A stretch of DNA of 64,000 bases from Corallococcus soli (GTDB lineage Bacteria > Myxococcota > Myxococcia > Myxococcales > Myxococcaceae): assembly GCF_014930455.1 (NCBI RefSeq), contig NZ_JAAIYO010000002.1:682001-746000 (forward strand). Reading direction: 5' to 3'. The notes beneath the pieces are model-generated. The model saw nothing but the letters and a program-made list of their open reading frames with translations, did no database searches and was not told where the DNA came from. Of the stretch, positions 16,223-59,100 are shown one piece after another. How positions within the stretch are numbered: the stretch's first letter is position 1; every line of letters starts with the position of its first letter. The position numbers and the translations under genes were made by a program.

Positions 16223-16248
16223 CGTCCGGCGGACACCGCGTCGTGCCC

Positions 16249-16285
16249 GAAGGCCCGGGACCTCTTCGCGAGGTGCCGGGCCTTC
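16249..16285. terminator. Convergent terminator hairpin
   Basis: Arms 16249-16264 and 16270-16285 pair over 16 bp with a single mismatch, around a five-base loop. It lies between the plus-strand MXAN_5187-like gene and the minus-strand kinase, where a shared terminator is expected. The 109 bases from 16286 to the kinase stop hold nothing else I can identify. Confidence 0.6.
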
Positions 16286-16394
16286 TCACTGCGGGGCTCC
16301 AGGGCCTGTTGGGATGCCGCACCCCCGAGCCGCCCGGAGGCCGGGCTTCGTCGCGTGGGGGCGGTGGCGGTGGGTGGTGGGGGCCCGTCCGGTT

Positions 16395-18044
16395 TCAGCT
16401 CGCGCGGGGAAGCACGACGCTGAAGCGGGCACCCTGGCCCGGCTCTCCGCCCACCTCCAGCCGGCCGCCGTGCTCCTGGAGGATGCGCGCGGCGATGGCG
16501 AGGCCCAGGCCGGTGCCGCCGTCCTTGGTCGTGAAGTAGGGCTCGAAGATGCGGGCGCGGTGTTCGGCGGGGATGCCGGGCCCGTCGTCCTCCACCTCGA
16601 TGACGGCGTCCGCGTCCGTGCCCTTCACGCGCACGCGCAGCGAGCCTCCCTTGCCCGTCATCGCCTCCTCGGCGTTCTTCACCAGGTTCACGAGCACCTG
16701 GGTGAGCTGGTCGCGGTCCGCCCGGGCCACCACTCCCGTCTGGAGCGCGGGCAGCAGGTGGATGCCCTCGGGCGGCGCGGCGTAGAGCGACAGCACGCCC
16801 TGGGCCAGCTCTCCCAGGTCCACCGGGGCGAGCTGGGGCTTGGGCAGGCGCGCGAAGCGGCTGAACTCGTCCACGATGCGCCGCAGCCGCTCCACCTCCT
16901 CCAGGATGACGCCCGCGCTCTCCTTGAAGAGGGCGGGGAAGCTGGGGTGGCGGGCCTCGTGCGCGGCCAGCAGCGTCTCCAGCGACATGCGGATGGGGGT
17001 GAGGGGGTTCTTGATTTCGTGCGCCAGCCGCCGCGCGACCTCCTGCCATGCGGCGATGCGCTCGGTGGCCATCAGCCGCTCGGTGGTGGCCTTCAGCTCG
17101 GACGTCATGTGGTTGAACGTCCGGACCAGCTCGCCCACCTCGCCCGAGGCCCGCGCGGCCACCTGGACGTCCAGCGCGCCCTCCGCCACGCGGCGGGCGC
17201 CGGAGGTGAGGGCCTCCACCGGCCGCGTCATCCACCGGGAGACCAGCAGGCCCAGCAGCGCCGCGAAGGCGAGGCCCAGCCCCGCCAGCAGGAGGAACGC
17301 GCGCATGACGCCTTCTTCCGCCTCCCGGGCGGCGGCGCGGCTGAAGGTCAATCGCACGGAGGCCGTGTCGCCCAGGGGTAGCACGCGCTCCACCGTGGGC
17401 GGGGCCGCGCTGCCCGCGTGCGCGACCGTCGCCGCGCCGGACAGCAGCGTCACGTCCGCCTGCGTGAGCCGCGCCAGGTGCTGCGCGAGGCCGTCATCCA
17501 GCACCACGCCGCCCACGGCCCAGAGGCGCACGTCGCCGTAGTCCACGGGCCGCGCGGTGACGAGCGCGGGCACCTGCCTGAGGCCCGCGTTGCCTCGCAC
17601 GTCCACACGCACCGGCACGGGTTTGGGGGACTTCTCCTTCGTCACGGCGAACAGCACGGCGTCCGGGTCGCCGCGCCGGGCGGGCAGGTGGCCAGAAGAG
17701 AGCACCGTGCCGTTGCGATCAAACAGCGTGAGCACCGTGAGGCCGCGGCTCTTCATCAGTCCTTCGGCGGTGCCGGCCTGGATGGCGCGCAGGGGGCGGT
17801 CGCGCGCCTCGCGCACCAGGTCCTCCATGGCGGGGCTCTCCACCAGCTCCTCCACGGCGCGGCGCGCGTTGGAGGCGGAGCGCTCCAGGGACTCCTGCGC
17901 GGAGGCGGTGGCGGCCGTCATGCGCGCGTCCAGCTCACGCGACAGTGTGTCGCGCAGGCGCGTCAGCGTCAGGGGAACCACCACCGCCAACGGCACCAGC
18001 GCGAGCAGGGCGAAGGCGAGCGCGAGCCGGGTCCTCAGGCGCAT
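16395..18044 (-). CDS. crdS: NtrB/NtrY-type sensor histidine kinase, likely CrdS
   Basis: The protein has 549 residues: a membrane helix (about 7-27), an extracytoplasmic sensor (about 28-247) and a second helix (about 248-271). HAMP spans about 272-325, then HisKA with His342 in AHEIKNPLTP, and HATPase (NLVKNAEEA, DDGPGIP, GTGLGLAIA). The HExxN signature of kinases that are also phosphatases is present. In M. xanthus the kinase CrdS, by my recollection near PBP1A and MXAN_5187, phosphorylates CrdA; here the same neighbours surround this gene and a CrdA candidate lies in the window. Last gene of the PBP operon, 28 bases after the preceding one. Orthology is inferred, not proven. Confidence 0.7.
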   Translation of the reverse strand: MRLRTRLALAFALLALVPLAVVVPLTLTRLRDTLSRELDARMTAATASAQESLERSASNARRAVEELVESPAMEDLVREARDRPLRAIQAGTAEGLMKSRGLTVLTLFDRNGTVLSSGHLPARRGDPDAVLFAVTKEKSPKPVPVRVDVRGNAGLRQVPALVTARPVDYGDVRLWAVGGVVLDDGLAQHLARLTQADVTLLSGAATVAHAGSAAPPTVERVLPLGDTASVRLTFSRAAAREAEEGVMRAFLLLAGLGLAFAALLGLLVSRWMTRPVEALTSGARRVAEGALDVQVAARASGEVGELVRTFNHMTSELKATTERLMATERIAAWQEVARRLAHEIKNPLTPIRMSLETLLAAHEARHPSFPALFKESAGVILEEVERLRRIVDEFSRFARLPKPQLAPVDLGELAQGVLSLYAAPPEGIHLLPALQTGVVARADRDQLTQVLVNLVKNAEEAMTGKGGSLRVRVKGTDADAVIEVEDDGPGIPAEHRARIFEPYFTTKDGGTGLGLAIAARILQEHGGRLEVGGEPGQGARFSVVLPRAS

Positions 18045-18072
18045 GCGGCGTCTTCCTTCGTCTCAGCGCGGC

Positions 18073-19437
18073 TCACGGTCGGCCCCCACCACCCGATGCT
18101 TCGACAGGCGACAGCCACGCGCCCTCCAGCACGGGCAGGCCCTGCGCATCCAGCGCGAGCCCCGACACCTCCGGGGCCGCGCGCAGTCCCAGCCCTTGCG
18201 CGTACAGCGGGATGAGCGGCACGGAGGCCGCCAGCGCCAGGGCCCGCTCCCGGCTGCGCGCATCCCGGGCTCCGGCCTCCGCGAGCGCGCCGATGGACGG
18301 CAGCTCCACCCCGAGCAGGTCGCGGCGTCCGCCCGCCTCCAACACCACGGCCAGCGCGGGGCCAGGGATGGGCGGCAGCAGCAAGGCGCTCAGCATCAAC
18401 TCGAAGTCGCCCTTCGCCTGACGGGCGCGCAGGGCCGCGCGCGACTGCGGCTCCAGCGCGACGGTGTAGCCCAGCTCGTGCAGCTTCACCTGGATGCGCT
18501 CGGCCACCGCTCGCTGATCCGCCAGCGCCGCGTCGTACGCGAGCGTCACCTTGCGCGCCGTTCCCGTGGGCGGCGCCGCGGGCCGGGCCCTGGGACCCTG
18601 GGGCAGGAGCGCGGGAGGCAGCAGGTTCGCCATGGGCACGGCGGGGCCCTTCACGAACAGCCGCGTGAGGTCCTCGCGGTCGATGGCGCTCTCGACGGCC
18701 TGGCGGAAGTCGGTGGGCACCTTCCGGGGCGAATACGCCAGGTACGTCGCATACAGCGCCGGGCCCGGGAGGGTGTCGTTGTCCGGGGGCGTGCCCAGCT
18801 CCACCTGCACCTGCCGCGCGGACCACAGCCGCGTCAGGCCGCGCTCATCCGTGGCGGTGAGCGCCAGGCGGTCCAGGTACGGCCGGCCCTCCGGCCACGC
18901 GGGCTGCGCCTCCAGCACGCCCCTGCCCGCGGCGCTGAAGGGACCCGACGCAGGGGACGGCGGCGGCGCGAGCGCCGGATGGCAGAGCGCTCGCTCCAGG
19001 TCGGGCCAGGGGAAGGCCAGCGCCAGCTCCAGCCCGGCGCCGGTGGACGTCACCTGCCGGCCCTCGCCCCTCAGCGGGTACAGCAGCGCCCGGTACGGCG
19101 ACGAAGCGTCGGCGGAGGACAGGCGCGTCCAGGCCCGGGCCACGGCGGTGGCGCTGGCGGAGGAGGGCAGCGCGATGCGGAGGGCCTGCGGCACCGGGCG
19201 CGACAGCTCTCGCGCCAGCGTCGGGTGGACGCGTCCGTCCGCGTCCACGCGGCACACGGGCCGCGTCAGCAGCCCCAGGAGCGCGGCCTCCATCGGCGTG
19301 TCGGCGAGGGAGGGTTCACCAATCTCGGGCGGACCGGCGTGGGCCACGCGCAGCTCGCCGCCATAGCGGGGACGGCTGGCCGCGAGCGTCGGGGCGGACG
19401 CGAGGAGGACGAGGCCCGCGACAACAGGACGGATCAT
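18073..19437 (-). CDS. Exported peptide-binding-like (SBP family 5) protein
   Basis: The 454-residue protein has a Sec signal (MIRPVVAGLVLLASAPTLA) and resembles family 5 extracellular solute-binding proteins. Supporting segments are an RYGGELRVA-type start, an LGLLTRPVCRVDADGRVHPTLA region and DFRQAVESAIDREDLTRLFV further on. No transporter membrane or ATPase genes are adjacent, so it may be a sensor subunit rather than an importer; its position directly before the kinase gene fits that. The ATG at 19437 shares one base with the upstream stop; a GTG one codon earlier would give a GTGA overlap. Confidence 0.75.
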   Translation of the reverse strand: MIRPVVAGLVLLASAPTLAASRPRYGGELRVAHAGPPEIGEPSLADTPMEAALLGLLTRPVCRVDADGRVHPTLARELSRPVPQALRIALPSSASATAVARAWTRLSSADASSPYRALLYPLRGEGRQVTSTGAGLELALAFPWPDLERALCHPALAPPPSPASGPFSAAGRGVLEAQPAWPEGRPYLDRLALTATDERGLTRLWSARQVQVELGTPPDNDTLPGPALYATYLAYSPRKVPTDFRQAVESAIDREDLTRLFVKGPAVPMANLLPPALLPQGPRARPAAPPTGTARKVTLAYDAALADQRAVAERIQVKLHELGYTVALEPQSRAALRARQAKGDFELMLSALLLPPIPGPALAVVLEAGGRRDLLGVELPSIGALAEAGARDARSRERALALAASVPLIPLYAQGLGLRAAPEVSGLALDAQGLPVLEGAWLSPVEASGGGGRP

Positions 19438-20783
19438 CACGGTGCACCCTGGCGCAGGAGGAACAGCTCGCTCGTGCCATCCGGCTTCCACGAACCCACG
19501 ATGACTTCCCGGCGCTTGTCGCCATCCAGGTCCGCCGTCACCACGAACAGCGCGCGGCCCGCGGGCAGGGCCCCCTGCCACAGCGGCTCATGGGCCATGG
19601 GCGCCTCGGGCGCCAGCGACAGCACGCGCAGCGTGTCCGGTGACGGCTGGAGCTGCGGCGACGTGGTGAGCAGCTCCGGTGCCCCGTCGCCGTCCAGGTC
19701 CGCGAGCGCGCTGCCCGCCCCCAGCCCCGACAGCCGCGAGGGCGCGGACGCGGGCCTCGCATAGAGCGACGCCGTGCCATCCGCGTGGACGAACAGCATG
19801 CGCGGGGAGGCGAAGCTCGCGGCCCCGAACGGCGCGGGCACGGTGAGCGACCGCCCATCCGCCAGCCGGACCTCCGGGGCGAACACCGTCTGGCCGGGCA
19901 CGAACGCTCCTCGCTCCGACGTCCCCAGCGGCGCGGCCTCCAGCGTCCCCGCCGCGCGCAGCGTCCCCTTCGCCTTGTCCAGCACGAGCAGCTCACCCCG
20001 CGCGTACCGGGTGCTCCACGCGGCCAGTCGCGGGGGCCCCGCGAGCACCGCCAGCGCTCCGAAGGGCTCACGCGTCGTCGCCGTCGCGGGCGCGCCCTCC
20101 AGCTCCCTGCGCGCCAGCAGCCGTCCATCCGCCGCGAACACGAACACCTCTCGCGCGGTGAGCGCGGCCACCTCGTCGCGACCATCCCCGTCCAGGTCGC
20201 CAGCCGCCAGCGCGGCCAGCGGCGCCTCCACCCGCGCGAACACCGCGCCCAGCAGCCGCGGCGGACGCCGGGGCTGGGGTCCGGGCGTCCCGGAGGAGGG
20301 TGTCCCCATCGCGGCCAGGGCCAGCACGGCGGCATCCGCCTCCACGCCCTCGGCCACGGCGGCGGCGGGCCTGGGCGGACGGGTGGGCGTGCGGCCGGAC
20401 CAGAAGTTCACCCACGTGCCCAGCACGTCCCCTCGCGCCACCAGCTCTCCGCCCTCCACGTCCAGCGTGAGCCGCGCCAGCGAGCGGGCCCCCTGTTCGC
20501 GGGCGGTGGCCTCGGCGCGCTCGGGCGGGACCTCCAGCACCACGGGCCCCAGCTGCTGGGCCGCGAGCCGCGAGGCCAGCAGCGTCCCGAAGGCGCGGCG
20601 CAGCTCGGCGGAGCTTCCGGACAGCGACACCGCGACGGGCGCCTCCGCGTGCGCGGCGCGGATCGCCTCCGCCACGGCCTGGGCCAGCCGGGTCGTGGCG
20701 GGGGACGCGCCCTCCGCCGCGACGGCCCCGGAGGGCAGGGCGAAGGCGAGCGTCAGGAACAGGGGCAGGAGCGAGCGACTCAC
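19437..20783 (-). CDS. Exported FG-GAP/VCBS beta-propeller protein
   Basis: The 448-residue product has a signal peptide (MSRSLLPLFLTLAFALPSG) and an N-terminal domain of about 130 residues. A propeller with calcium-type blades follows: AAGDLDGDGRDEVAAL, ALADLDGDGAPELL and VTADLDGDKRREV. Such propellers usually bind ligands or partner proteins outside the cytoplasm. Its GTG start overlaps the stop of the PBP gene by four bases, and its own stop touches the next gene, so the three are translationally coupled. Function in the operon is unknown. Confidence 0.8.
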   Translation of the reverse strand: MSRSLLPLFLTLAFALPSGAVAAEGASPATTRLAQAVAEAIRAAHAEAPVAVSLSGSSAELRRAFGTLLASRLAAQQLGPVVLEVPPERAEATAREQGARSLARLTLDVEGGELVARGDVLGTWVNFWSGRTPTRPPRPAAAVAEGVEADAAVLALAAMGTPSSGTPGPQPRRPPRLLGAVFARVEAPLAALAAGDLDGDGRDEVAALTAREVFVFAADGRLLARRELEGAPATATTREPFGALAVLAGPPRLAAWSTRYARGELLVLDKAKGTLRAAGTLEAAPLGTSERGAFVPGQTVFAPEVRLADGRSLTVPAPFGAASFASPRMLFVHADGTASLYARPASAPSRLSGLGAGSALADLDGDGAPELLTTSPQLQPSPDTLRVLSLAPEAPMAHEPLWQGALPAGRALFVVTADLDGDKRREVIVGSWKPDGTSELFLLRQGAP

Positions 20784-23410
20784 AGGCCCTTCTTGCCACC
20801 TTCCTCGATGAAGAAGTTGTCCGGCGTCACCTGTCCGGGCGGCGGTGCCTCGGCGGTGGGCTGGGTGCCCTCCAGGAAGGGCTCCAGCCGGCCCGGGACG
20901 GCGCTTCCGGCGAGCAGCCCCGTGGCCGGGTCGATGCGCACCTGCGTGACGCCCGGCGGCACCTCGAAGTCGCGCGCGGGCAGGCCCTCCTCCGCCACGC
21001 GCATGAAGCTGAGCCAGATGGGCAGCGCGGCCCGGCCACCCGTCTCGCTGCTGCCCAGGGGCGAGTTGTCATCGAAGCCCACCCACGCGCTGGCCACCCA
21101 GTCCATCGTGTAGCCGGAGAACCACGTGTCCTTGGACTCGTTGGTGGTGCCCGTCTTGCCCGCGGCCGGCCGGTTCAGCTCGCGCACCGCCCGCGCCGTG
21201 CCCTCCTCCACCACGCTGCGCATGAGCGAGGTGGCCAGGTACGCCACCGCCGGGGGCAGCGTCTCCTCGAAGGCCGGCTGGTGCTCCTCCAGGACGGTGC
21301 CCTGCGCGTCGCGCACGCGCAGCAGCGCCAGCGGCTCCGCGTAGCGGCCATTGGCCTGGAGCGTGGCGTACGCGTTGACGGCCTCCAGCATCGTCACCTC
21401 GCCGGTGCCCAGCGCCAGCGTGAGGTTCTCCGGCAGCGGCGAGCGGATGCCCGCCCTCCGCGCGAAGTCGATGGCGGTCGCCGGGGTGATGGCCTCGATG
21501 AGCCGCACGGACACGGTGTTCTTCGACTTGGTGAGCGCCGTGCGCATGGACATGGGGCCTTCGAACTGTCCGTCGAAGTTCTTCGGCCTCCACGCCTTGC
21601 CCGTGTACGGGTCGCGGATGGTCTCCGGCGCGTCGTTCACCGTGGACAGCGGCGTGAAGCGGCCGGACGCCAGCGCGGCGGCGTAGATGAAGGGCTTGAA
21701 GGAGGACCCCGGCTGGCGCTTCGCCTGCGTGGCGCGGTTGAACGACGAGCGCTCCGCGTCGTAGCCGCCCACCATCGCCACCACGTTGCGGTTGGCCGGG
21801 TTGATGACCACGAGCCCGCCCTGCACCAGCGGCACCTGATCCAACGTGGCCTCCACGAAGGCCGGCGCGGGCGGCGCCTTGAGCACGCGCACGAACACCA
21901 GCTCCCCGGGCGTGAGCACGTCCGCGATGCCCTTGGGGGCCTTCTTGCCCTTCTGCCGCGCCCACCCCACGGACGCGAAGGACACCTCCGCGGTGCGGCC
22001 CACCAGGTCCACGCGCGCCACGTCGCGCTTGGGGTCCACCTCCGTGACGTAGCCCGTCAGGCGCAGGCCCTCCTCCATGGGCTTGAGCAGGACGCGGCCC
22101 GCGCGCTCGCGCTCCGGCGACTGGGGGGCTTCCTCCTCCTCGGCTTCGGCGACCAGCTCCGGCGGGGGCGCCTCCTCCGCGCCGTCGGCCTCGGGCGCGG
22201 TCGCCTTGGTCGGTGGCGTGGGGGCGGTGGGGGCCTGGACGAGCGGCGCCAGGTCCGCGACATAGCCCTGGTCCTTCTGCCGACGGCCGGCCTCCTCGAT
22301 GCGCTGGGTGATGAGCGCGCGGTAGCGGGCCCAGGCGTCCGCTTCCAGCCTGCCCGGGGCGCCCCGGTAGCCCTGGCGCCGGTCCACCGCCTCCAGGCCC
22401 TCGCGCACGGCCTTCTCCGCCACGGCCTGGAGCCGGGGCACCTGCGCGATGTCCACGCGCAGGCCGCCCTCCATGACCTTCTTCTCGCCGTAGCGCTCCA
22501 CGAGCGTGCGGCGGATCTCCTCCGCGTAGTACGCCCCCGCGCTGGGCGCCTTGCGCGGCGCGAGCACAATGGGCTTCTCCTTCTCCGCGTCCACCACCGC
22601 GCGGGCGACGAAGCCCTGGCGGGCCATCTGCTCCAGCACGTAGAGCTGGCGCTGCTTGGCGCGGGTGATGTTCGTCACCGGGTTGATGCGGTGGGGCTGC
22701 TGCACGGTGCCCGCGAGCACCGAGGCCTCGCCCACGGACAGGTCCTTCGCGTGCTTGCCGAAGTAGAAGAGCGCCGCCTCCTCCAGCCCGTAGCGGCGCT
22801 GCCCGAAGTACACGCCGTTGATGTAGAGGCTGAGGATCTGATCCTTGGTGAGGGCCTGCTCCAGGCGCGGGGTGAGGATCCACTCGCGAATCTTGCGGCC
22901 CAGGCTGCGCTCCGGCGTGAGCAGCATGTTCTTCACGACCTGCTGCGTGAGCGTGGACGCGCCGGACTTGCGGCTGCCGGGGATGAGGTTCTTCACGCCC
23001 GCGCGCAGGATGCCGAAGGGGTCCAGGCCCTCGTGCTTGTAGAAGTCCGCGTCCTCGGCGGCCAGGAAGGCGTTGCGCACGTGGACGGGCAGGTCCTCGA
23101 TGCGGATGAGCGTGCGGCGCTCCAGCGCGAACTCGGCGCAGAGCGTGCCGTCCGCGCACGTCACCTTCGTCACCTGCGGCGGCAGGTAGACGCGCAGGGA
23201 CTCCACGGAGGGCAGGTCGCGGCTGAAGTAGGTGTACGTGGCCACGCCCGCGCCAAGGAGGAGCACCAGCCCCACGACGCCCAGCACCAGCAGCCGCTTC
23301 GTCCAGCGCCACAGCGTGGCGCCGACTCCGCGCCTTCGGGGCGGCGGTTCCCCGGTGGGGGCCGGGGGGAGGGGCTCGGGAGGAAGGGGCATCGGTCGGG
23401 CCGGAGTCAT
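20780..23410 (-). CDS. mrcA: Class A penicillin-binding protein (PBP1A)
   Basis: The 876-residue bifunctional enzyme makes peptidoglycan. After a cytoplasmic tail and one membrane helix (about 35-60) comes the GT51 glycosyltransferase, with catalytic glutamate in AAEDADFYKHEG and the STLTQQ motif. The transpeptidase follows, with active serine in PGSSFKPF, SKN as the SxN motif and KTGT near residue 755. Between them is a long Pro/Glu-rich insert (about 395-440) before an OB-like segment. It heads the coupled run of FG-GAP protein, solute-binding-like protein and sensor kinase, suggesting wall synthesis and envelope signalling are linked. Confidence 0.93.
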   Translation of the reverse strand: MTPARPMPLPPEPLPPAPTGEPPPRRRGVGATLWRWTKRLLVLGVVGLVLLLGAGVATYTYFSRDLPSVESLRVYLPPQVTKVTCADGTLCAEFALERRTLIRIEDLPVHVRNAFLAAEDADFYKHEGLDPFGILRAGVKNLIPGSRKSGASTLTQQVVKNMLLTPERSLGRKIREWILTPRLEQALTKDQILSLYINGVYFGQRRYGLEEAALFYFGKHAKDLSVGEASVLAGTVQQPHRINPVTNITRAKQRQLYVLEQMARQGFVARAVVDAEKEKPIVLAPRKAPSAGAYYAEEIRRTLVERYGEKKVMEGGLRVDIAQVPRLQAVAEKAVREGLEAVDRRQGYRGAPGRLEADAWARYRALITQRIEEAGRRQKDQGYVADLAPLVQAPTAPTPPTKATAPEADGAEEAPPPELVAEAEEEEAPQSPERERAGRVLLKPMEEGLRLTGYVTEVDPKRDVARVDLVGRTAEVSFASVGWARQKGKKAPKGIADVLTPGELVFVRVLKAPPAPAFVEATLDQVPLVQGGLVVINPANRNVVAMVGGYDAERSSFNRATQAKRQPGSSFKPFIYAAALASGRFTPLSTVNDAPETIRDPYTGKAWRPKNFDGQFEGPMSMRTALTKSKNTVSVRLIEAITPATAIDFARRAGIRSPLPENLTLALGTGEVTMLEAVNAYATLQANGRYAEPLALLRVRDAQGTVLEEHQPAFEETLPPAVAYLATSLMRSVVEEGTARAVRELNRPAAGKTGTTNESKDTWFSGYTMDWVASAWVGFDDNSPLGSSETGGRAALPIWLSFMRVAEEGLPARDFEVPPGVTQVRIDPATGLLAGSAVPGRLEPFLEGTQPTAEAPPPGQVTPDNFFIEEGGKKGL

Positions 23411-23527
23411 GACGCTCGGAAGAGGGAAGAAGGGTGCACGTTAGACCGGGGGGCGGGCGGGGTGAACCCACGCGGGCGCCCCTCCCGTCGAAGAGGGCTT
23501 CCCGGGTCGGCTTCCTGGTCGCCCGCC

Positions 23528-24580
23528 CTACGGCGCGGCGGGCGGAGGGGCCTGGGGCAGGGCCAGGGCGGGGTCGGCCCGGGCCACGCGCTTGGCGTTG
23601 ACGCGGGCCTGCACGTAGCGGGGCGACAGCCGGGTGGCGGCGGCGTAGGCGGCGCGGGCCTCCTCCAGGCGTCCCAGGCGCTCGCAAGCGACGCCCAGGT
23701 TGTTCTGCACGTAGGCCACGTGGGGCAGCAGGGCCGCGGCCTGGGTGAGGACCTCCACGGCGCGGGCGTTGTCGCTGGCGCGCAGGTAGGCGAAGCCCAG
23801 GTTGTTGAGCGCGTGGCCGTGCTCCGGCGCCAGGTGCACGGCCTGCTGGAAGCGCAGGATGGCGGAGCCAAGCTCGTTGGCGCCCAGGTGGGCGCGGCCG
23901 AGCACCTGGTACACCTCCGCGTCCTCCGGGTTGCGCAGGAGGGCCTCCTCGCCCACCGGCACGGCGTCGGCGAAGCGCCCCTGCGCCACCAGCAGGCGGG
24001 CCTGCTGCACCAGGGCCCCCGCGTCGGAGGGCTCCGCCTGGGCCAGCCGGGCGTAGGCGTCCAGGGCCATGGCCGTGTCCCCGGCGAGCCGGGCGGTGCG
24101 CGCGAGCTGCGCCAGGGTGTCCGTGTCGCCCGGGGCGTCATGGAGCGCGCGGCGCAGCTCCGTCACGGAGCCGGACAGGTCGCCCAGCTCGCGCAGGCCG
24201 TGGGCGCGGGCCCCGTGGTCCACACGGCGGGTGTGCTCGTGGGGCAGCGCGAGGGCGTCCCCCTTCGCTCGGGCCGCCGCTTCCGGCGGGGTGGCCTCCG
24301 GGTGCGCGTCAAGGGGGCGCGGCGCGGTCGCGAGCGAAGGCTCCCCGGCGGACGGCTCCAGCGTCAGGGCGGGCGCGGCGGCGGCCTGGGGCGCGCGGGC
24401 CTCCACGGCGTGGGCGAGCCAGGGCTTGAGCAGGCGGGGCAGGGGGACGTCCTCCCACGCGGCGAGGCCCAGGGCGGCGAGGGCGGCGGGCACGAGCACC
24501 TTGCGAAGCGCGGGCGGAACGGTGAAGTGCCGGGAGGAGGAGGTGGGGCGGCGGGTCCGGGTGCGCGTCTTCGGGTTCAT
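23528..24580 (-). CDS. TPR-repeat protein with N-terminal membrane segment
   Basis: The 350-residue protein has a basic N-terminus rich in Arg/Thr (MNPKTRTRTRRPTSSSRHF), one hydrophobic helix (about 28-45) and an Ala/Pro linker. Six or more tetratricopeptide repeats follow from about 130 to 335 (HALNNLGFAYLRASDNARAVEVL in two pieces, VQNNLGVACERLGRLEEARAAY). TPRs bind other proteins. It lies 117 bases upstream of the PBP gene on the same strand and may be the first gene of that operon, though the gap leaves room for a promoter. Confidence 0.8.
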   Translation of the reverse strand: MNPKTRTRTRRPTSSSRHFTVPPALRKVLVPAALAALGLAAWEDVPLPRLLKPWLAHAVEARAPQAAAAPALTLEPSAGEPSLATAPRPLDAHPEATPPEAAARAKGDALALPHEHTRRVDHGARAHGLRELGDLSGSVTELRRALHDAPGDTDTLAQLARTARLAGDTAMALDAYARLAQAEPSDAGALVQQARLLVAQGRFADAVPVGEEALLRNPEDAEVYQVLGRAHLGANELGSAILRFQQAVHLAPEHGHALNNLGFAYLRASDNARAVEVLTQAAALLPHVAYVQNNLGVACERLGRLEEARAAYAAATRLSPRYVQARVNAKRVARADPALALPQAPPPAAP

Positions 24581-24787
24581 GGCAATCCCCTCGGGGCTGC
24601 TCTGGGCCTGCGACGGGGCGCCTGGAGTGACGCCCCCGGGGCCGCGGAGGGGCGGCCCGACACGGTCTATTGCGACCGGTGTGCCAACGGCTCCTCCCTC
24701 TGGGGGATGGTGGGGGTGTGTCCCTGGGGCCACGGGGCGGGGAAAAGCGTGGCAGGGGGCGTGGGCCGCGTGCGACGGTCGGCGGCG

Positions 24788-48496: not shown

Positions 48497-49948
<1,452 letters not shown>

Positions 49949-50033
49949 GGGCAAACCGGTCACACTCTCACGGAAATAATCGGGGCATCAAGCGACTCGT
50001 ACGGCCCTGAAGGAGCAGGAGGGGACAAACCTT

Positions 50034-50063: not shown

Positions 50064-50124
50064 CGACAGGCTTGGTCCGCGCGCTCGCGGGCCACCTTTC
50101 CCGTGAATGATGTACGGAGGAATG

Positions 50125-50874
50125 ATGCATCGGATTTCGCTTTGGGCGGGGTTGGCCCTCGCCGTGGCCGTGCTGACCGGGTGCCCGCCCACCTACCCCA
50201 AGTGCAACGACGACGAGACCTGCAAGGAGAAGGGCGAAGTCTGCGTCCAGGGTCAGTGTCAGGAGTGCGCCACGGACGACAACTGCCGTGAGGGCTTCAC
50301 CTGCCAGGCGAACAAGTGCGTCCCCAAGCCTCCCGAGTGCACCACGGACGCGGCCTGCGGCTCCGGCCGCATCTGCGAGGCCGGCAAGTGCGCCGAGGCC
50401 CAGTGCAAGGACGACTCCGCGTGCAACGGTGGCAAGTGCGAGGGCGGCCGCTGCCAGGCCCCCAAGGACACCTGCACCGCCGCCACCGACTGCGGTGAGG
50501 GCCAGGACTGCCAGGCCGGCCGCTGCGTGACGGCCTCCGCCGACTCGCGCTGCGACTACGCGCCCGTGCGCTTCGGCTTCAACGAGTCCACCCTGGACTC
50601 CAGCGCGCAGTCCCGCCTGGGCGACCTGGCGGCCTGCATCAAGGCGGCCACGGGGAAGATCACCCTGGGCGGCCACGCGGACGAGCGCGGCACGGAGGAG
50701 TACAACCTCCAGCTGTCCAACCGCCGCGCCGCGGCGGTCAAGCGCTACCTGACCGACCTGGGCGTGCCGTCCAACCGTCTGACGACGGTGGGCTACGGCG
50801 AGACGCGCCCTGTCGCCAATGGCGCCAGCGAGGAAGCGTGGGCGGAGAACCGCCGCGTGGAGTTCCAGCGCTAG
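50125..50874 (+). CDS. crdB: Pal/OmpA-like lipoprotein with Cys-rich repeats, CrdB-like
   Basis: The 249-residue protein has a lipoprotein signal (lipid on Cys20, LTGC). Cys-rich repeats of the CxxDxxCxxGxxCxxGxC kind follow (about 25-140; for example CATDDNCREGFTCQANKC). It ends in an OmpA/Pal peptidoglycan-binding domain with GHADERGTEEYNLQLSNRRA. It should tie the outer membrane to the wall while exposing a disulfide-rich module. GGAGG is four bases before the ATG chosen. First gene of the chemosensory run, as crdB is in M. xanthus; a sensory or regulatory link to the receptors is an inference. Confidence 0.82.
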   Translation: MHRISLWAGLALAVAVLTGCPPTYPKCNDDETCKEKGEVCVQGQCQECATDDNCREGFTCQANKCVPKPPECTTDAACGSGRICEAGKCAEAQCKDDSACNGGKCEGGRCQAPKDTCTAATDCGEGQDCQAGRCVTASADSRCDYAPVRFGFNESTLDSSAQSRLGDLAACIKAATGKITLGGHADERGTEEYNLQLSNRRAAAVKRYLTDLGVPSNRLTTVGYGETRPVANGASEEAWAENRRVEFQR

Positions 50875-50898: not shown

Positions 50899-51333
50899 AT
50901 GGCCGCCCTCGAGTCGGAAACGCGTCAGTCCTACCTGGTCTTCGCCTGTGGAAGCAGTTGGTACGCGGTGCCCGCGGAAGCCGCGGCGGAGGTGGTCACC
51001 TTCCCCGAGCTGACGCGGGTACCGGGTTCCCCGCCCCACCTGCTGGGCGTGTTCGCGCACCGGGGTGAAGTCATCCCGGTCGTGGACATGAGCCTGCTGG
51101 TGGGAGGGGTGACCGCCGGCTCCCGCCGCGCGGTGCTGGTGCGGCTGCCGCGCGGAACGCTCGCCCTCACCGCCAGCAGCGTCGCCGGGGTGTCCCCCGT
51201 GACGGGCGCGCTGGAGCCCCTGGGCCCCACGGGCGTGCACGTCCACCTGCGCGGCCCCGGCAAGAGCGGCGCGCGCGACGTGGCCGTCATCGACCCCGAA
51301 GGCCTCTTCGACCACCTCAGCCAGGGCGGCTAG
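50899..51333 (+). CDS. cheW3: CheW adaptor
   Basis: The 144-residue protein matches CheW: SYLVFACGSSWYAVPAEAAA at the first subdomain, the VTFPELTRVPGSPPHLLGVF receptor/kinase-docking region, then RGEVIPVVDMSLLVG. CheW couples chemoreceptors to the kinase CheA in arrays. It is 24 bases after the CrdB-like gene and four bases before the next, so within one operon. Confidence 0.9.
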   Translation: MAALESETRQSYLVFACGSSWYAVPAEAAAEVVTFPELTRVPGSPPHLLGVFAHRGEVIPVVDMSLLVGGVTAGSRRAVLVRLPRGTLALTASSVAGVSPVTGALEPLGPTGVHVHLRGPGKSGARDVAVIDPEGLFDHLSQGG

Positions 51334-51337
51334 CGCC

Positions 51338-51706
51338 ATGCCCCGCGCTGCCCGGGTCGAGGGGACGCTCCTGTGCCACGTGGGCCTCCACCGCCTCGCG
51401 TTCGAGGCGAACGAGGTGGCCTCCATCGCCGCGCCGGGCGACGATTGGGTGTCCGCCCGCCGGGCCTTCCGGGAGTCCGCGGGCGCCCAGCGCGTGCTCG
51501 TCACCCTCACGGGTGAGGCCGTGGGCGTGGACGGGCTGGAGATCGACGCGGAGGCGCTGTCGGTGCTGCCGCCCTCGCCGGTGGTGGCGGGCGCCTCCGG
51601 GGGAAGCCTGCGCGGCTTCGTGCTGACGCGCGGGGTGCTGTGGCCGCTGGTGCACCTGGACGGCTTCGAGCGCTACCTGCGCGGCCTGGGCCCGGAGGCC
51701 GCATGA
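51338..51706 (+). CDS. Degenerate CheW-like protein
   Basis: The 122-residue protein looks like a shortened or worn-down CheW: a start of GTLLCHVGLHRLAFEANEVA, then RRAFRESAGAQRVLVTLTGE, and an end segment LTRGVLWPLVHLDGFERYLR. The usual VPGSPxxLLG-type loop is missing. It stops by overlapping the first receptor gene (ATGA), so it belongs to the same operon. The M. xanthus Che3 cluster has an extra small gene called crdC; this could be it, but I cannot confirm the match. Confidence 0.6.
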   Translation: MPRAARVEGTLLCHVGLHRLAFEANEVASIAAPGDDWVSARRAFRESAGAQRVLVTLTGEAVGVDGLEIDAEALSVLPPSPVVAGASGGSLRGFVLTRGVLWPLVHLDGFERYLRGLGPEAA

Positions 51707-53499
51707 CGCCGCCCCGGGAGCTGCGCGGCCTGGCCCGCTGGACGACGCGCCCCCGCGTGCTGGGCAGCTGCGTGGGCGTGGTGCTCGCGCTCGTGCACAT
51801 CCACCTGTCCCACACGTTGCCGAAGGAGGGCCGGCTTCCGCTGTCCATCCTGGGGGTGTGCGCGCTCGCGCTGTTCCTGGGCCTGGGCGGGCTGCGCGAC
51901 GGCCGCGCCCTGCGCACGTTGATCGCGCTGGGCGAGGGCCGGCTTCCCTCCACGCCCGAGCACCTGCGCCGCGCGCTCCAGGAGGTCGCGGCCATGCCGG
52001 GCGTGGGCTTCTGGTTCGCGCTGCAGGGGTGGCTGGGCGGGACGGTGCTGGTGGCGGTGTCCTTCCCGCTGCTGGCGCACGTGCCGTGGACCGAAGGGCT
52101 GCGCGTGGTGCTGATGGGCCTGTCCCTGGGCCCGCTCAGCTCCATGCTCGTCTACCTCATGCTGGTGCGCCGCTCGCGCGTCACGCTGGAGCGGCTGGTG
52201 GCGGAGGGGCTGTCGCCGCTGGAGGTGCTGGCCGCGCTGCCGCCCCGGCGCATGCACATCCGCCGTCGCCTGGTGGTGTTCACCGCCGTCGCGGTGTTGA
52301 GCCCGTCGCTCTTCATCCTGGACGTGGCCTTCACGCGCACGGTGGCGGTGGTGGACGCGTGGGCGCAGGCCACCACGCCCCAGGAGCGCGAGGCCATCCT
52401 CGTGCGGGCCCGCGAGGGCGAGGGCGCGCCGCTGGGGTTGCTGGCGGGGCTCGTCACGGTGCTCATCCTGGGCACCGCGGCGCTCGGGGGCACGGCGCTC
52501 TCCGAACCCCTGCGCGCCATCACCGAGGACGCGACCCGCATCGCGCGCGGCGAAGTGCGCCCTCCGCGCGTCATCCTCGCGGAGGACGAGGTGTGGGCCA
52601 CCTCCGCGGCCTTCACCCAGATGCAGGTGCAGCTCGTGCAGGCGCTCTCCCAGCTTCGCAAGGCGGGCATCCAGATCTCCGCCACCACGGAGCAGTTGGT
52701 GGCCACCAGCACGGAGCAGGAGGTGGGCGCGGACGAGCAGGCCGGGGCGCTCAACGCGACCAGCGCCACCACGGAGCAACTGGCCCGGTCCGCGCAGCAG
52801 ATCGCCGACAACGCGGAGTCCGTGTCCGCCATCGCGGAGACGACGTTCGGCGCGGCGCAGGCCGGCCAGCGCGGCGCCACCGCCTTCCTGGGCGCCATGC
52901 AGCGCATGAAGCACGACAACGAGGCCATCGCGGACGCGGTGGTGCGCCTCAACAAGCGCGTGCAGCAGATTGGCAAGGTGGTGGAGTTCATCAACGAGAT
53001 CGCCGACAAGTCGGACCTGCTGGCGCTCAACGCGGAGCTGGAGGGTACGAAGGCGGGCGAGGTGGGCCGGGGCTTCTCGCTGGTGGCCGCGGAGATGCGC
53101 AGGCTCGCGGAGAACGTCATCCGCTCCACCAAGGAGATCGAGGGCCTCATCGGGGAGATCCGCGACGCGACGAACGCGGCGGTGATGGCCACGGAGGCGG
53201 GCCTGAAGACGACGGAGCTGGGCACGCTGCTGGCGGCGCAGGTGGACGACAGCCTGGGCCTCATCCTGGAGCTGGCGCGGCAGACGTCGCACGCGGTGCG
53301 CAGCATCTCGCTGGCCACCTTGCAGCAGCAGACGGGCACCGACCAATTGGCCGCGGCCATGGGCGACATCCTGCGCGTCACCGAACAGAACGCCGCGGCC
53401 ACCAAGCAGATGGTGGCGGCCAACGCGGACCTGTCCACGCTGGCGCACGACCTGCAACACGTCGTCGAGCGCTTCCACGTCGAAGCCGGGGAAGGGTAG
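51703..53499 (+). CDS. mcp3A: Methyl-accepting chemotaxis protein (first of a tandem pair)
   Basis: The 598-residue receptor has about six membrane helices in residues 1-262 and short loops instead of a large ligand-binding domain. HAMP (about 262-315) and a helical signalling domain follow, with hairpin tip IADKSDLLALNAELEGTKAG and RGFSLVAAEMRRLAE. The tip differs from the common NLLALNAAIEAARAGE by the ELEGTK stretch. It ends without a CheR-binding pentapeptide. ATG overlaps the previous stop (ATGA). Sensing is probably within or near the membrane. Confidence 0.88.
   Translation: MTPPRELRGLARWTTRPRVLGSCVGVVLALVHIHLSHTLPKEGRLPLSILGVCALALFLGLGGLRDGRALRTLIALGEGRLPSTPEHLRRALQEVAAMPGVGFWFALQGWLGGTVLVAVSFPLLAHVPWTEGLRVVLMGLSLGPLSSMLVYLMLVRRSRVTLERLVAEGLSPLEVLAALPPRRMHIRRRLVVFTAVAVLSPSLFILDVAFTRTVAVVDAWAQATTPQEREAILVRAREGEGAPLGLLAGLVTVLILGTAALGGTALSEPLRAITEDATRIARGEVRPPRVILAEDEVWATSAAFTQMQVQLVQALSQLRKAGIQISATTEQLVATSTEQEVGADEQAGALNATSATTEQLARSAQQIADNAESVSAIAETTFGAAQAGQRGATAFLGAMQRMKHDNEAIADAVVRLNKRVQQIGKVVEFINEIADKSDLLALNAELEGTKAGEVGRGFSLVAAEMRRLAENVIRSTKEIEGLIGEIRDATNAAVMATEAGLKTTELGTLLAAQVDDSLGLILELARQTSHAVRSISLATLQQQTGTDQLAAAMGDILRVTEQNAAATKQMVAANADLSTLAHDLQHVVERFHVEAGEG
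53014..53117 (+). repeat. 104-bp near-identical block shared by the two receptors (copy 1)
   Basis: These bases encode the receptor tip and match copy 2 at 54824-54927 with one visible difference (T here, C there, at 53046). Third-codon positions are almost all identical, which is more than protein constraint needs. Confidence 0.85.
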
Positions 53500-53506
53500 G
53501 GCGGCC

Positions 53507-55327
53507 ATGGGCGTGCGCATCGGCCCCCGGCGGGCCTCCTTCAGCCGGCACCTGGCGCTGCCCGTCCCGCTGGCGAACCTGGTGGGCTCCACGCTGGGTC
53601 TGCACTTCGCGTCGCTCGTGATTGGCGGCCCGCTGACGGCGCACCTGGGCTCGCTCGTCGTCCTGGTGGTGGGCGTGAGCGCGCTGCACATGCTCCTGGG
53701 CGTGGGCGTGTCCCTGCGCCGCTTCCCCACGGTGCGGGCCCTGGAGCGAGGGGACGTGGCGCCCACGGCCGAGCACCTGTCGGAGGCCGTGGGGGAGATG
53801 TCTCGCGCCCCGGGCGAGGCGTTCATCCGGTCGCTGGGGCTGTGGGTGCTGACGACAGGGGTGGTGGCGGTGGTGCTCTGGTCGGTGATGGGGCTGCCGG
53901 GGGCGCTCACCCTGCGGGTCTCGGGGCTGGGGGCGCTGTTCGGGCCGCTCACGTCGCTGCTCGTGTACGGGCTGGTCACGCTTCGGGCGCGCCGGGGCGT
54001 GCTGTGGGTGGCGGACCAGGGGCTGACGCACGCGCAGGTCATCGCCGCGCTGCCCCGGCGCTCGCGCATCCGCGCGCGGCTGGTGGCGTTCACCGCCATC
54101 TGCGTGGTGACGCCCGCGGTGCTGTGCGCCCAGGTCGTCATGGCGCTGTCGGAGCGCGTCTTCACGCGGCTTCAGCAGGCGGGCGGTCCGGACGTGCAGG
54201 GCGTGATGGTGGACGCGCTGCACCTGGAGGCCTTCACGTCCAGCGCGGTGCTGTGCGCGGTGGTGTTCGGGCTGGCGCTCGCGACGGCGTACCTGGGCGG
54301 CACGTTGCTGGGCCGGCCGATGCGGGAGCTGTCCGGAGAGGCGCGCCGCATCGCCGCGGGGGACCTGGCGAGCCCCCGGCTCGTGCCGGCGGAGGACGAG
54401 GTGTGGGCGGTGTCCGCGGCCTTCACCACGATGCGCACGCACCTGGCGGACGTGCTCGCGCAGCTGCAGCGCGCGGGCGCCCAGATTTCGGCCACGACGG
54501 AGGAGATGCTCGGCACCTCCGGGCGCTACGAGGCGGGGGCCGCCGAACAGGCCAGCAGCCTGGATGAGACGAGCGCCACCACGGAGGAGCTGGCGCGCTC
54601 GGCGAAGCAGATCGCGGAAAACGCGGGGTCGGTGGCGGAGATCGCCCAGCGCACGCTGGCGGCGGCGCAGGGCGGGCAGGGCAGCGCGGAGTCGTTCCTG
54701 GGCGCCATGTCGCGCATGCGCCAGGACAACCTGGCCATCAGCTCCGCGGTGGCGCGGCTGAACAAGCGCGTGCAGCAGATTGGAAAGATCGTCGAGTTCA
54801 TCAACGGCGTGGCGGACAAGTCCGACCTGCTGGCGCTCAACGCGGAGCTGGAGGGCACGAAGGCGGGCGAGGTGGGCCGGGGCTTCTCGCTGGTGGCCGC
54901 GGAGATGCGCAGGCTCGCGGAGAACGTGCTGGAGTCCACGAAGGAGATCGAGGGCCTCATCGAGGAGGTGCGCGAGGCGAGCGCCGCGGCGGTGGCGGTG
55001 ACGGGCGGAGGGGTGCGCGCGGTGGAGACGGGCACCGCGCTGGCGGAGGAGGTGTCGGAGTCGCTGCGGCAGATCGTCAGCCTCGCGGGGCGCACGTCGG
55101 ACGCGGTGCGGATCATCTCCCGGTCCACGCAGCAGCAGCAGGCGGGCACGGATCAGCTCGCGGACACGATGGCGGACATCCTGCGCATCACCCAGCAGAG
55201 CCTCAACGCCACGAAGCAGGTGAGCTCGGCCAACGGCGACCTGCTGGGGCTGGCGCAGGACCTGCGTGGGGTGGTGGAGCGCTTCCAGATCCACCAGGCG
55301 ACCCTGCGCAAGGAGGAGGGCGGGTGA
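53507..55327 (+). CDS. mcp3B: Methyl-accepting chemotaxis protein (second of a tandem pair)
   Basis: The 606-residue receptor is built like its neighbour: multiple membrane helices to about residue 275, HAMP, then a methylation-helix region and the tip VADKSDLLALNAELEGTKAG. Its N-terminal half is clearly diverged from the first receptor, while the tip is nearly identical, so the pair arose by duplication and kept a common array contact. It starts eight bases after the first receptor's stop, and its TGA overlaps the GTG of the CheA gene. Confidence 0.88.
   Translation: MGVRIGPRRASFSRHLALPVPLANLVGSTLGLHFASLVIGGPLTAHLGSLVVLVVGVSALHMLLGVGVSLRRFPTVRALERGDVAPTAEHLSEAVGEMSRAPGEAFIRSLGLWVLTTGVVAVVLWSVMGLPGALTLRVSGLGALFGPLTSLLVYGLVTLRARRGVLWVADQGLTHAQVIAALPRRSRIRARLVAFTAICVVTPAVLCAQVVMALSERVFTRLQQAGGPDVQGVMVDALHLEAFTSSAVLCAVVFGLALATAYLGGTLLGRPMRELSGEARRIAAGDLASPRLVPAEDEVWAVSAAFTTMRTHLADVLAQLQRAGAQISATTEEMLGTSGRYEAGAAEQASSLDETSATTEELARSAKQIAENAGSVAEIAQRTLAAAQGGQGSAESFLGAMSRMRQDNLAISSAVARLNKRVQQIGKIVEFINGVADKSDLLALNAELEGTKAGEVGRGFSLVAAEMRRLAENVLESTKEIEGLIEEVREASAAAVAVTGGGVRAVETGTALAEEVSESLRQIVSLAGRTSDAVRIISRSTQQQQAGTDQLADTMADILRITQQSLNATKQVSSANGDLLGLAQDLRGVVERFQIHQATLRKEEGG
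54824..54927 (+). repeat. 104-bp near-identical block shared by the two receptors (copy 2)
   Basis: Partner of 53014-53117, at the same place in the second receptor gene; see that entry for the single difference. Confidence 0.85.
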
Positions 55328-57963
55328 ACCCCAGCGAACGGCTCCTCAAGCAGTTCCGCGACCTGGTCACGGTGCGCCTGGAGCGCATCAACCGCTCCCT
55401 GATGGAGCTGGAGTCCGGGGGCAACCTGGAGGCGGGGCAGCGGGTGCTGCGCGAGCTGCACGGGCTGAAGGGCGAGGCCCGGATGATGGGCTTCGACGAC
55501 ATCAACACGCTCGTGCACCAGATGGAGGAGCTGGTCCGCTGCGCGGAGCCGCACCGGTATCGCCTGTCGTCGGAGTCCACCGACGCGCTGCTCGCCACGG
55601 CGGACACGGTGCTCGCGCTGTCCGGGGCGCTCCAGGCGGGGGAGCCGCCGCTTGCGGTGGCGACGCTGGTGGCGACGCTGCAGGAGCGGACCACGACGGA
55701 GTCCGCGCGTCCTCCGCTTCCGGCGCCCCGTCCCCTGGAGGATGGCGCCCGGGCGCAGGCGTCGCGTGGGCCAGGCGCGCCCGCGAAGGGGGAGGGGACG
55801 CAGGGGGCCGCGTCCCACCTGCTGGCGACGACGCGCGCGGAGTCGGGCACCCCCGTCGTGCCTGCCCACTGGTCGGCGCTGGCGCTCCGTCCGGAGTCCG
55901 CGCCGGGCCCGGCCATGTCCCCGGTCTCGGCCGCGTCGCACCTGCTCATGACGGCCATCCGTTCGGAGCCGCCCGGCGGGGGACAGGGCGCGATGGCCTC
56001 CGCGCCGGCCGCCCCGGTGGCTGCGCACCCCGGGGTCTTCACCTCAGGCGCCCCGGTGGGGACACAGCAGGGGGCTTCGTCCCTGGTGGCCTCGGCGGGT
56101 TCGCATCTCGTGAGCCCGGGGGCCGGAGGTCCGGCGGCGGCCTCCTTCGTGAATCCGGCATCGGCGCCGCTGCCGGGCACCCGGTTGCTCGACACTGCGG
56201 CCTCCTCCCGTCCTTTTTCGGGGGCGGCACCGAAGGTCGGTGGCGGCGCGCCACGCAACCATGAGGCCCGCGTGGACACGGCGGTGCGCATTGGCGTGGC
56301 CAGCCTGGACCTGCTCACCAGCGCGGTGACGAACCTGGGGCAGGTGGCGCGCCGCCGTGAGCTGGCGACCGCGCGGCGGCTGGCGCTGGTGCGGGAGCTG
56401 AGCGAGCTGGCCCGGGCGGCGGAGGACCTGGGCCCCGCGGGCGTCGCGATCGCGGAGCGGCTGGGCCGGGCGAAGGAGCTGGCCGCCACCCTGCACCGGG
56501 AAGCGAAGCTGCTCGCCAACGCGGAGCTGCGCGACCTGGGCCAGGTGTCCGAAGAGGTCCAGACGCTGCGCATGCTGCCCCTGGCCGTCCTCTTCGAACC
56601 CTATCCCCGCATGGTGCGCGACCTCGCGCGGGAGCTTGGCAAGGAGGTGGAGCTCGTCGTGGACGGCGAGGACACCCGCGCGGACCGCTCCGTGGTGGAG
56701 GCGCTGCGCGAACCCCTGATGCACCTGGTGCGCAACGCGCTGGACCACGGCCTGGAGACGCGCGTGGACCGCGTCGGCGCCGGCAAGCACCCCCGGGGCT
56801 GCCTCACCCTGCGCGCCGCGCGCGAGGGCAGCCGCATCGTGCTGCGCGTGGAGGACGACGGCATGGGCATGGATCCCGCCCTGCTGCGGCGGGTGGCCGT
56901 GCGCCGGGGCGTGCTCGACGAAGCCACCGCGAACGCCCTGTCCGACGCCGCCGCGCGCGACCTCATCTTCCTGCCCGGCTTCTCCTCGCGCGAGGTGGTC
57001 ACCGACCTGTCAGGTCGGGGCGTGGGGCTGGACGCCGTGCGCGCGTCCCTCCAGGCGCTGGGCGGCGACGTGGGCGTGGAGTCCGCGCCGGGCTGGGGCA
57101 CCATCTTCACCCTGCGCGTGCCGGTCTCCCTCACCGTCGCGCCCCTGCTCTTCGTCCAGGTGGGCGACGAGACGCTCGCCCTCGGCGCCGTCCACGTCTC
57201 CCGCGCCCTCAAGGTGGAGGCCCCCGACATCGGCGAGGTCGCCGGACGCCCCGTCCTCCGGGCCGAGGGCCGCGTGCTGCCGTTCGCGTCGCTCGCGTCG
57301 GTCCTGGGCCACGACCCGGAGCGCCCCGCCCGGGAGGGCGAGCTGGTGCTGGTGGTGAAGGGGCAGGGCATGGAGGCCGCACTGGCGGTGGACCGGGTGC
57401 TGGAGGAGCGCGTCCAGGCCATCCTGCCGTTGAAGGGCATCCTCGCCCGCTTCACCCACCTGACCGGGGCCACGTCGCTGGCGGACGGACGGCTGGCCAT
57501 GGTCCTGTCGGCGGCGACCCTGGCGGCGGGCGTCCACGGGACGGCGCCCCTGCGGCTGGTGCGTCCCCCGGTGCGGGCGGCCCAGGTGCGCCGCCGCCGC
57601 ATCCTCGTGGTGGACGACTCCCCCCTCACCCGCGAGCTGGTGGCCAACCTGCTGGAGGCGGTGGGGTACGACACGCTCCGGGCGCCGGACGGCCTGGGTG
57701 CGCTCGCACTCCTGGGCGAGGACGGCCCCCCGGTGGAGCTGGTGGTCACCGACCTGGAGATGCCCCAGATGGACGGCGTGGAGCTCACCCGGCGCCTGAA
57801 GACCGACCCCCACCGGAGCGGCATGCCCGTCGTCATCCTCACCACCCGGGGAGGGGAGGCGGACCGGGCGAGGGGGCTGGCGGCCGGAGCGGACGGCTAC
57901 ATCACCAAGGGGGACCTCGTCCGGCAGGACCTGGTGGATGTGGTCGGGCGACTGTTGGCCTGA
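55324..57963 (+). CDS. cheA3: Hybrid CheA kinase with C-terminal receiver
   Basis: The 879-residue kinase has HPt with His46 (VLRELHGLKGEARMMG) and a long Pro/Ala/Ser-rich variable linker (about 120-315). A dimerisation helix pair, HATPase (HLVRNALDHGLETR, DDGMGMD, GRGVGLDAV), CheW-like regulatory domain (about 600-735) and a receiver with Asp810 (VVTDLEMPQMDG) follow. No P2 CheY-binding domain is recognised and no cheY is present in the operon, as in M. xanthus Che3, where CheA3 is reported to modulate CrdA phosphorylation. The GTG overlaps the receptor stop by four bases. Confidence 0.88.
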   Translation: MNPSERLLKQFRDLVTVRLERINRSLMELESGGNLEAGQRVLRELHGLKGEARMMGFDDINTLVHQMEELVRCAEPHRYRLSSESTDALLATADTVLALSGALQAGEPPLAVATLVATLQERTTTESARPPLPAPRPLEDGARAQASRGPGAPAKGEGTQGAASHLLATTRAESGTPVVPAHWSALALRPESAPGPAMSPVSAASHLLMTAIRSEPPGGGQGAMASAPAAPVAAHPGVFTSGAPVGTQQGASSLVASAGSHLVSPGAGGPAAASFVNPASAPLPGTRLLDTAASSRPFSGAAPKVGGGAPRNHEARVDTAVRIGVASLDLLTSAVTNLGQVARRRELATARRLALVRELSELARAAEDLGPAGVAIAERLGRAKELAATLHREAKLLANAELRDLGQVSEEVQTLRMLPLAVLFEPYPRMVRDLARELGKEVELVVDGEDTRADRSVVEALREPLMHLVRNALDHGLETRVDRVGAGKHPRGCLTLRAAREGSRIVLRVEDDGMGMDPALLRRVAVRRGVLDEATANALSDAAARDLIFLPGFSSREVVTDLSGRGVGLDAVRASLQALGGDVGVESAPGWGTIFTLRVPVSLTVAPLLFVQVGDETLALGAVHVSRALKVEAPDIGEVAGRPVLRAEGRVLPFASLASVLGHDPERPAREGELVLVVKGQGMEAALAVDRVLEERVQAILPLKGILARFTHLTGATSLADGRLAMVLSAATLAAGVHGTAPLRLVRPPVRAAQVRRRRILVVDDSPLTRELVANLLEAVGYDTLRAPDGLGALALLGEDGPPVELVVTDLEMPQMDGVELTRRLKTDPHRSGMPVVILTTRGGEADRARGLAAGADGYITKGDLVRQDLVDVVGRLLA

Positions 57964-58035
57964 AGTCGGCGGTGCTCCTGGGGATCTCCGCGCATTGCTA
58001 TACTCCCCGCCGCGCGTACGGGGTATGGAACGTCC

Positions 58036-59091: not shown

Positions 59092-59100
59092 GCCGGTGCC

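Follow-up and report, generated by a model that had tools for sequence, protein, structure and literature searches.

The sensor kinase gene crdS lies in a conserved operon with a class A penicillin-binding protein in Myxococcia

Introduction

The sensor kinase CrdS of Myxococcus xanthus both phosphorylates and dephosphorylates the response regulator CrdA, and starvation is the condition that raises its kinase activity (PMC3510030). The cue that CrdS reads and the targets of CrdA matter to myxobacterial development, and both come into question in a stretch of 64,000 nucleotides from Corallococcus soli (herein called the window). An initial annotation of the window pointed to a CrdS candidate whose gene is tightly linked to that of a class A penicillin-binding protein (PBP), and proposed that the status of wall synthesis could be the signal that feeds CrdA. 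Is this kinase indeed CrdS, how old is its linkage to the PBP, and in which direction might information flow between the two?

Identity of the kinase

M. xanthus encodes 118 HisKA kinases, so similar domains by themselves would say little about this assignment. Published CrdS is a protein of 578 aa with H371, E372, I373, K374, N375, P376, L377, I380, and N482 (Willett and Kirby, PMC3510030). The counterpart of the window kinase in M. xanthus AM003 (locus L024, 84% identity) is 549 aa long from its conserved start and has its histidine at position 342. When read from an in-frame ATG located 29 codons upstream, the same protein reaches 578 aa and every published residue number is matched. Because both the residues and the length of the AM003 counterpart agree with published CrdS, the window kinase is the CrdS ortholog, which establishes an identity that the initial annotation had offered as conditional. 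The genome of origin encodes no full-length paralog, its next best match (40%) covering only the kinase core (residues 227-547), and the closest named relatives are Corallococcus proteins (93-98% identity). With exact agreement in length and at nine residues, given the upstream ATG, and with the window kinase as the sole full-length match in its genome, the alternative that the gene encodes a different NtrB-like kinase can be dismissed with near certainty.

The protein has two transmembrane helices, a periplasmic sensor domain (about residues 28-250), a HAMP domain, a HisKA domain in which H342 equals published H371, and a HATPase_c domain. The ATG of the published 578-aa start overlaps the preceding gene for a solute-binding protein (SBP) and is not conserved (L024:9914-10000; window 18045-18070). 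Corallococcus has a stop in frame only a few codons ahead of the conserved start, and the extension thus lacks conservation. The true start is therefore probably that of the 549-aa form, in which case the published numbering is shifted by 29.

Organization of the crdS operon

The kinase gene closes a run of five genes that are transcribed in the order TPR protein, PBP1A, propeller, SBP, and CrdS (Table 1). Thus, the initial description of the kinase as the last of four tightly linked genes holds for its terminal position and the tight coupling, and the count becomes five with the TPR gene, whose leading position is conserved among relatives. The PBP1A and propeller genes overlap by 4 bp, the propeller and SBP genes overlap by 1 bp, and a gap of 28 bp separates the SBP and kinase genes. 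The junctions in relatives are mostly 4-bp overlaps, across genera, which fits a translationally coupled operon. The SBP start lies at 19437, and a listed open reading frame of 502 aa is over-extended. The operon includes no permease gene, and neither sigma-70 promoters nor intrinsic terminators were found in 16000-25200.

Table 1. Coordinates in the window of the crdS operon, its candidate regulatory sites, and the crdA region.
Feature	Position	Strand	Basis or remark
crdS, sensor kinase, 549 aa	16395..18044	-	Pfam, published-residue fingerprint, model, Foldseek
Family-5 solute-binding protein (SBP), secreted, peptide/oligopeptide type, 454 aa	18073..19437	-	Pfam SBP_bac_5, E 5e-11
FG-GAP beta-propeller protein, secreted	19437..20783	-	Pfam, AF2 model, Foldseek
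PBP1A-family class A PBP	20780..23410	-	Pfam, TIGR02074, motifs
TPR protein, first operon gene	23528..24580	-	Pfam; lipoprotein-like N terminus in several relatives
Sigma-54 (-24/-12) promoter, TGGCACACCGGTCGCA	24671..24686	-	Upstream of TPR gene, correct spacing, conserved
Inverted repeat, 18 bp, consensus TGTGKC-N6-GMCACA	24717..24734	.	Candidate sigma-54 activator binding site
crdA ortholog, NtrC-type sigma-54 response regulator	48497..49963	-	30.5 kb upstream of crdS, same strand
crdB ortholog, lipoprotein-like, C-terminal Pal/OmpA peptidoglycan-binding domain	50107..50874	+	Divergent from crdA
Che3 genes (CheW3, two MCPs, CheA3, CheB3, CheR3)	50899..60657	+	Adjoin crdB; identified by comparing their order with the published one; CheB3 tested

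Two other genes flank the operon. An exonuclease III-like gene (24788-25558, forward strand) is divergent from it and is kept across Myxococcaceae and not in Anaeromyxobacter. At the other end, a gene convergent with crdS (14105-16222, forward strand) encodes a proline-rich membrane protein that matches no Pfam family, adjoins crdS in many lineages, and is strongly conserved (about 56-76%) over its C-terminal ~70 aa.

The proposed presence of a class A PBP in the kinase operon is borne out, both by a TIGR02074 score of 564.8 bits against a cut-off of 508.75 and by conservation of the linkage in relatives. The transglycosylase and transpeptidase motifs of the operon PBP1A are intact in the relatives checked. 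M. xanthus has three proteins to consider, namely PBP1a1, PBP1a2 (catalytic E97), and PBP1c, and cells that lose PBP1a1 grow more slowly at first and have altered dimensions (PMC10475089). In the AM003 genome, one member of the PBP1A family (L106) has its glutamate at position 97 when read from a GTG start, and another protein is PBP1c (L108), while the operon PBP has the residue as E117 or E111 and never at position 97. Because PBP1a2 and PBP1c are thereby excluded, the operon PBP is, by exclusion, the predicted ortholog of M. xanthus PBP1a1.

Conservation of the linkage within Myxococcia

Under strict thresholds, crdA is present in 90 of 116 Myxococcia genomes (one match in each at E<=1e-140) and crdS in 87. 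These counts are not a test statistic, because related genomes are not independent; most weight lies with the deep branches. Among the genomes with crdA, 87/90 also have crdS; the three exceptions are assemblies of 320 to 1260 contigs, and crdS occurs alone in no genome. When the two genes share a contig, they lie on the same strand with crdA upstream in every case (54/54), separated by 6-145 kb, and these pairs include all 22 near-complete genomes picked.

The deep branches hold a far more compact arrangement. In complete Anaeromyxobacter genomes (L088-L090) and in L040, the order is crdB/crdA-PBP1A-propeller-SBP-crdS, and in the complete genomes this block spans <10 kb (the genus label is by name for L040 and by similarity for L088-L091). 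A skeleton of crdB/crdA-PBP1A-crdS is found at L091. The class outgroup (L092) has the full block plus the TPR gene, and basal Myxococcaceae (L095, L103, and L104) hold the whole set in 12-14 kb. Some basal Myxococcaceae (flanks of L033/L104 and L102) also have a second sigma-54 activator gene, whose product is 42-46% identical to CrdA, convergent with crdS. The initial annotation had taken the Pal domain of CrdB as a further pointer to the cell wall. This domain is present, and crdB shares the ancestral block with crdA and the PBP1A operon.

CheB3 adjoins crdA in genomes that carry Che3. No Che3 genes lie near the block in complete Anaeromyxobacter genomes, where the best CheB3 match shows 46-47% identity and lies no closer than 140 kb, and genome G102 has no CheB3 at the threshold used. 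The lack of CheB3 beside the Anaeromyxobacter block suggests that the CrdA-PBP1A-CrdS block is older than its association with Che3, which probably joined later.

Arrangements outside the class

Several families beyond Myxococcia carry related gene sets. One (f11) has TPR-PBP1A-propeller-SBP-CrdS with its best CrdA on another contig, and in a second (f17) PBP1A-SBP-CrdS is accompanied by a probable propeller gene. Two others (f24 and f25) have CrdA-TPR-propeller-SBP-CrdS without PBP1A. The loci with this last arrangement (L132 and L133) have no recognizable sigma-54 site, and the SBP of L132 matches no Pfam family.

A separate lineage (L045-L057) joins PBP1A to a CrdS-like kinase with a 4-bp overlap in 13/13 loci, and the propeller, SBP, and crdA genes are absent beside this pair. 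No sigma-54 site was found in three of its loci scanned. A regulator encoded near the kinase was considered as CrdA and rejected, as it adjoins its own PilS-like kinase, is 38% identical, and has a helix-turn-helix (HTH) segment unlike that of CrdA.

Judging from these gene orders, the association of CrdS with PBP1A appears strong and is not obligatory, because f24 and f25 lack PBP1A. Nor do the propeller and SBP appear to be obligatory partners, because the L045-L057 lineage keeps the PBP1A-kinase pair without them. Gene order can persist by descent in close relatives, and one might argue that the neighborhood is incidental and reflects no shared function. However, even where protein identity has fallen to 33-50% the order and the 4-bp overlaps are retained, they recur in several families beyond Myxococcia, and the genes share the predicted sigma-54 promoter described below, such that an incidental neighborhood is very improbable.

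A conserved candidate sigma-54 promoter upstream of the operon

The predicted promoter site upstream of the TPR gene fits GG-N10-GC with TGGCAC as its -24 element and occupies a conserved position. TGGCACACCGGTCGCA is the sole exact match to TGGCACRNNNNTYGCA in the 64 kb. A sigma-54 site that agrees at 10 or more of 12 positions lies upstream of the operon in 27/29 Myxococcia loci and in 4/4 f11 loci scanned. In Anaeromyxobacter this site lies between crdA and PBP1A, and no conserved sigma-54 sites exist between crdA and crdB. The 18-bp inverted repeat is usually present as well, its start lying some 37-136 bp upstream of the -24 element. Its best match exceeds dinucleotide shuffles (p<=0.02) in 25/29 upstream regions, with the caveat that these same sequences supplied the consensus.

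CrdA is composed of REC, sigma-54 AAA, and HTH domains. Its HTH sequence (ERGHFYKKMKALG / ERSHLYKKMRALG) is kept across CrdA lineages and is unlike those of the other sigma-54 activators sampled. The protein was also considered as an NtrX or NtrC equivalog, and its scores fall under both curated cut-offs (402.7 vs 600 for NtrX and 472.5 vs 558.6 for NtrC).

The simplest reading of this arrangement is that CrdA would activate the operon promoter. It is possible, though we think it rather unlikely, that another activator drives the promoter and that CrdA acts elsewhere. The genome (9.4 Mb) encodes about 49 sigma-54 activators, crdA lies 14-145 kb away in most Myxococcaceae, and the f11 operon has no adjacent crdA. 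Against this, the promoter directly follows crdA in Anaeromyxobacter and L092, crdA and crdS are nearly always inherited together, and conservation of the repeat goes along with that of the CrdA HTH. PBP1a1 and CrdS are probably produced together under the control of sigma-54. The conserved promoter points to PBP1A as an output of a sigma-54 activator, for instance CrdA, at least as much as to wall status as the input, and PBP1a1 may thus be an output of the CrdS-CrdA system as much as an input to it.

Candidate sensor partners of CrdS

The initial annotation had named the binding protein and the propeller as candidate sensor subunits. An AF2 model of the CrdS periplasmic domain (pLDDT 91.6) adopts a double Cache fold whose nearest Foldseek matches are LuxQ, with or without LuxP (E 3.7e-07, TMq 0.57-0.59), followed by DctB and KinD; the similarity to LuxQ is moderate (TM about 0.57) and common to KinD and DctB. 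LuxQ reads its ligand via the binding protein LuxP. Since the receptor to which the modeled CrdS domain comes closest works with a binding protein, the SBP becomes a credible partner in sensing, and the model supports a putative contact between the two. As with LuxP and LuxQ, an SBP gene lies just upstream of crdS. However, the operon SBP is of family 5 rather than of the LuxP type, CrdS is not a hybrid kinase, and the output is an NtrC-type regulator.

No useful PDB sequence relatives were found for the SBP or the propeller. In the model of the propeller protein (AF2 pLDDT 86.7), an alpha/beta domain at the N terminus (about residues 29-158) precedes the propeller, and the Foldseek matches are the BBS1 propeller, TolB (second), and BamB. 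With the Pal domain of CrdB, this architecture recalls the TolB-Pal pair. However, the operon propeller carries FG-GAP repeats, and a separate, true TolB is encoded elsewhere in the genome. An assignment as TolB was rejected, as there is no TolB_N Pfam match and the hhalign probability is 3.9%, leaving the Foldseek hint only.

What CrdS might sense

On balance, we favor the hypothesis that the crdS operon is one arm of an ancestral crdB/crdA-PBP1A-propeller-SBP-crdS module, in which a CrdS-CrdA-sigma-54 loop joins signaling to wall synthesis and to which Che3 was added later. A periplasmic cue would reach the double Cache domain of CrdS by way of the secreted SBP, and possibly also of the propeller, in the manner of LuxP and LuxQ. 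CrdS would then phosphorylate or dephosphorylate CrdA, and phosphorylated CrdA bound at the 18-bp inverted repeat would activate the sigma-54 promoter of the operon. The activated promoter would yield more CrdS along with more PBP1A and periplasmic partners, such that signaling and wall synthesis would be set together. In Myxococcaceae, this loop might later have been placed under Che3 and used for developmental timing.

A wall-related cue for CrdS is plausible. If wall status acts on CrdS and sigma-54 controls PBP1a1, both arrows together would form a feedback loop. Drugs that inhibit peptidoglycan synthesis induce sporulation in M. xanthus (PMC8144978), and the related system NtrYX controls peptidoglycan genes in Rhodobacter (PMC7240162); both precedents lend circumstantial backing to the idea of a wall cue. 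Relatives of the CrdS kinase core (38-45%) occur among alphaproteobacteria, and the NtrY-NtrX systems of this group likewise use a sigma-54-type regulator and have a published link to envelope and peptidoglycan genes as well as to autoregulation (PMC7240162). However, CrdA scores under the NtrX and NtrC cut-offs, no PAS domain was detected in the cytoplasmic part of CrdS, and the operon is different.

The most serious competitor to a wall cue, which we rate as less probable than our favored hypothesis, is that CrdS senses nutrients. The SBP would bind peptides or another nutrient, CrdS would read starvation, and PBP1A would be just one of the outputs, adjusting wall synthesis when growth ceases. 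Family-5 SBPs are mostly peptide binders, and the operon protein is of this family (SBP_bac_5). In addition, f24 and f25 retain the SBP and CrdS without PBP1A, and a sigma-54 promoter ahead of PBP1A suggests that it is an output. The published model that starvation raises CrdS kinase activity (PMC3510030) fits nutrient sensing equally well. However, the L045-L057 lineage links a kinase to PBP1A without any SBP, and crdB with its Pal domain belongs to the same block; both observations are compatible with nutrient sensing.

A bolder proposal, which we offer only as speculation and regard as improbable, is that PBP1A, the TPR protein, propeller, SBP, CrdB, and CrdS form one envelope complex. Such a complex would read peptidoglycan fragments or PBP activity and adjust its own PBP1A through CrdA and sigma-54, and Che3 would later have captured this rheostat, such that it times fruiting-body development.

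Relation to known systems and implications

The C. soli genes share with the M. xanthus CrdS-CrdA and Che3 systems the orthologous kinase, an NtrC-type regulator, the divergence of crdB and crdA, and the Che3 neighborhood. Published accounts, however, treat CrdS-CrdA as a developmental two-component system. None of the accounts compared, a set without the 2011 mBio paper on CrdS (where the operon is possibly mentioned), refers to the PBP1A operon, to its sigma-54 promoter, or to the ancestral crdBA-PBP1A-crdS block. We found no papers under the locus tags MXAN_5180-5184.

Because CrdS is encoded by the last gene of an ancient and apparently co-regulated operon that also encodes a cell-wall synthase, our findings suggest that a switch for fruiting-body development began as a system for cell-wall control. 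The locus would then exemplify an older two-component system of the envelope to which a chemosensory system became attached. The linkage of CrdS to PBP1A also offers a possible reason that cell-wall drugs can trigger sporulation. Finally, the conserved sigma-54 promoter and the candidate CrdA site that precede pbp1a1-crdS provide the first specific target at which the action of CrdA may be tested.
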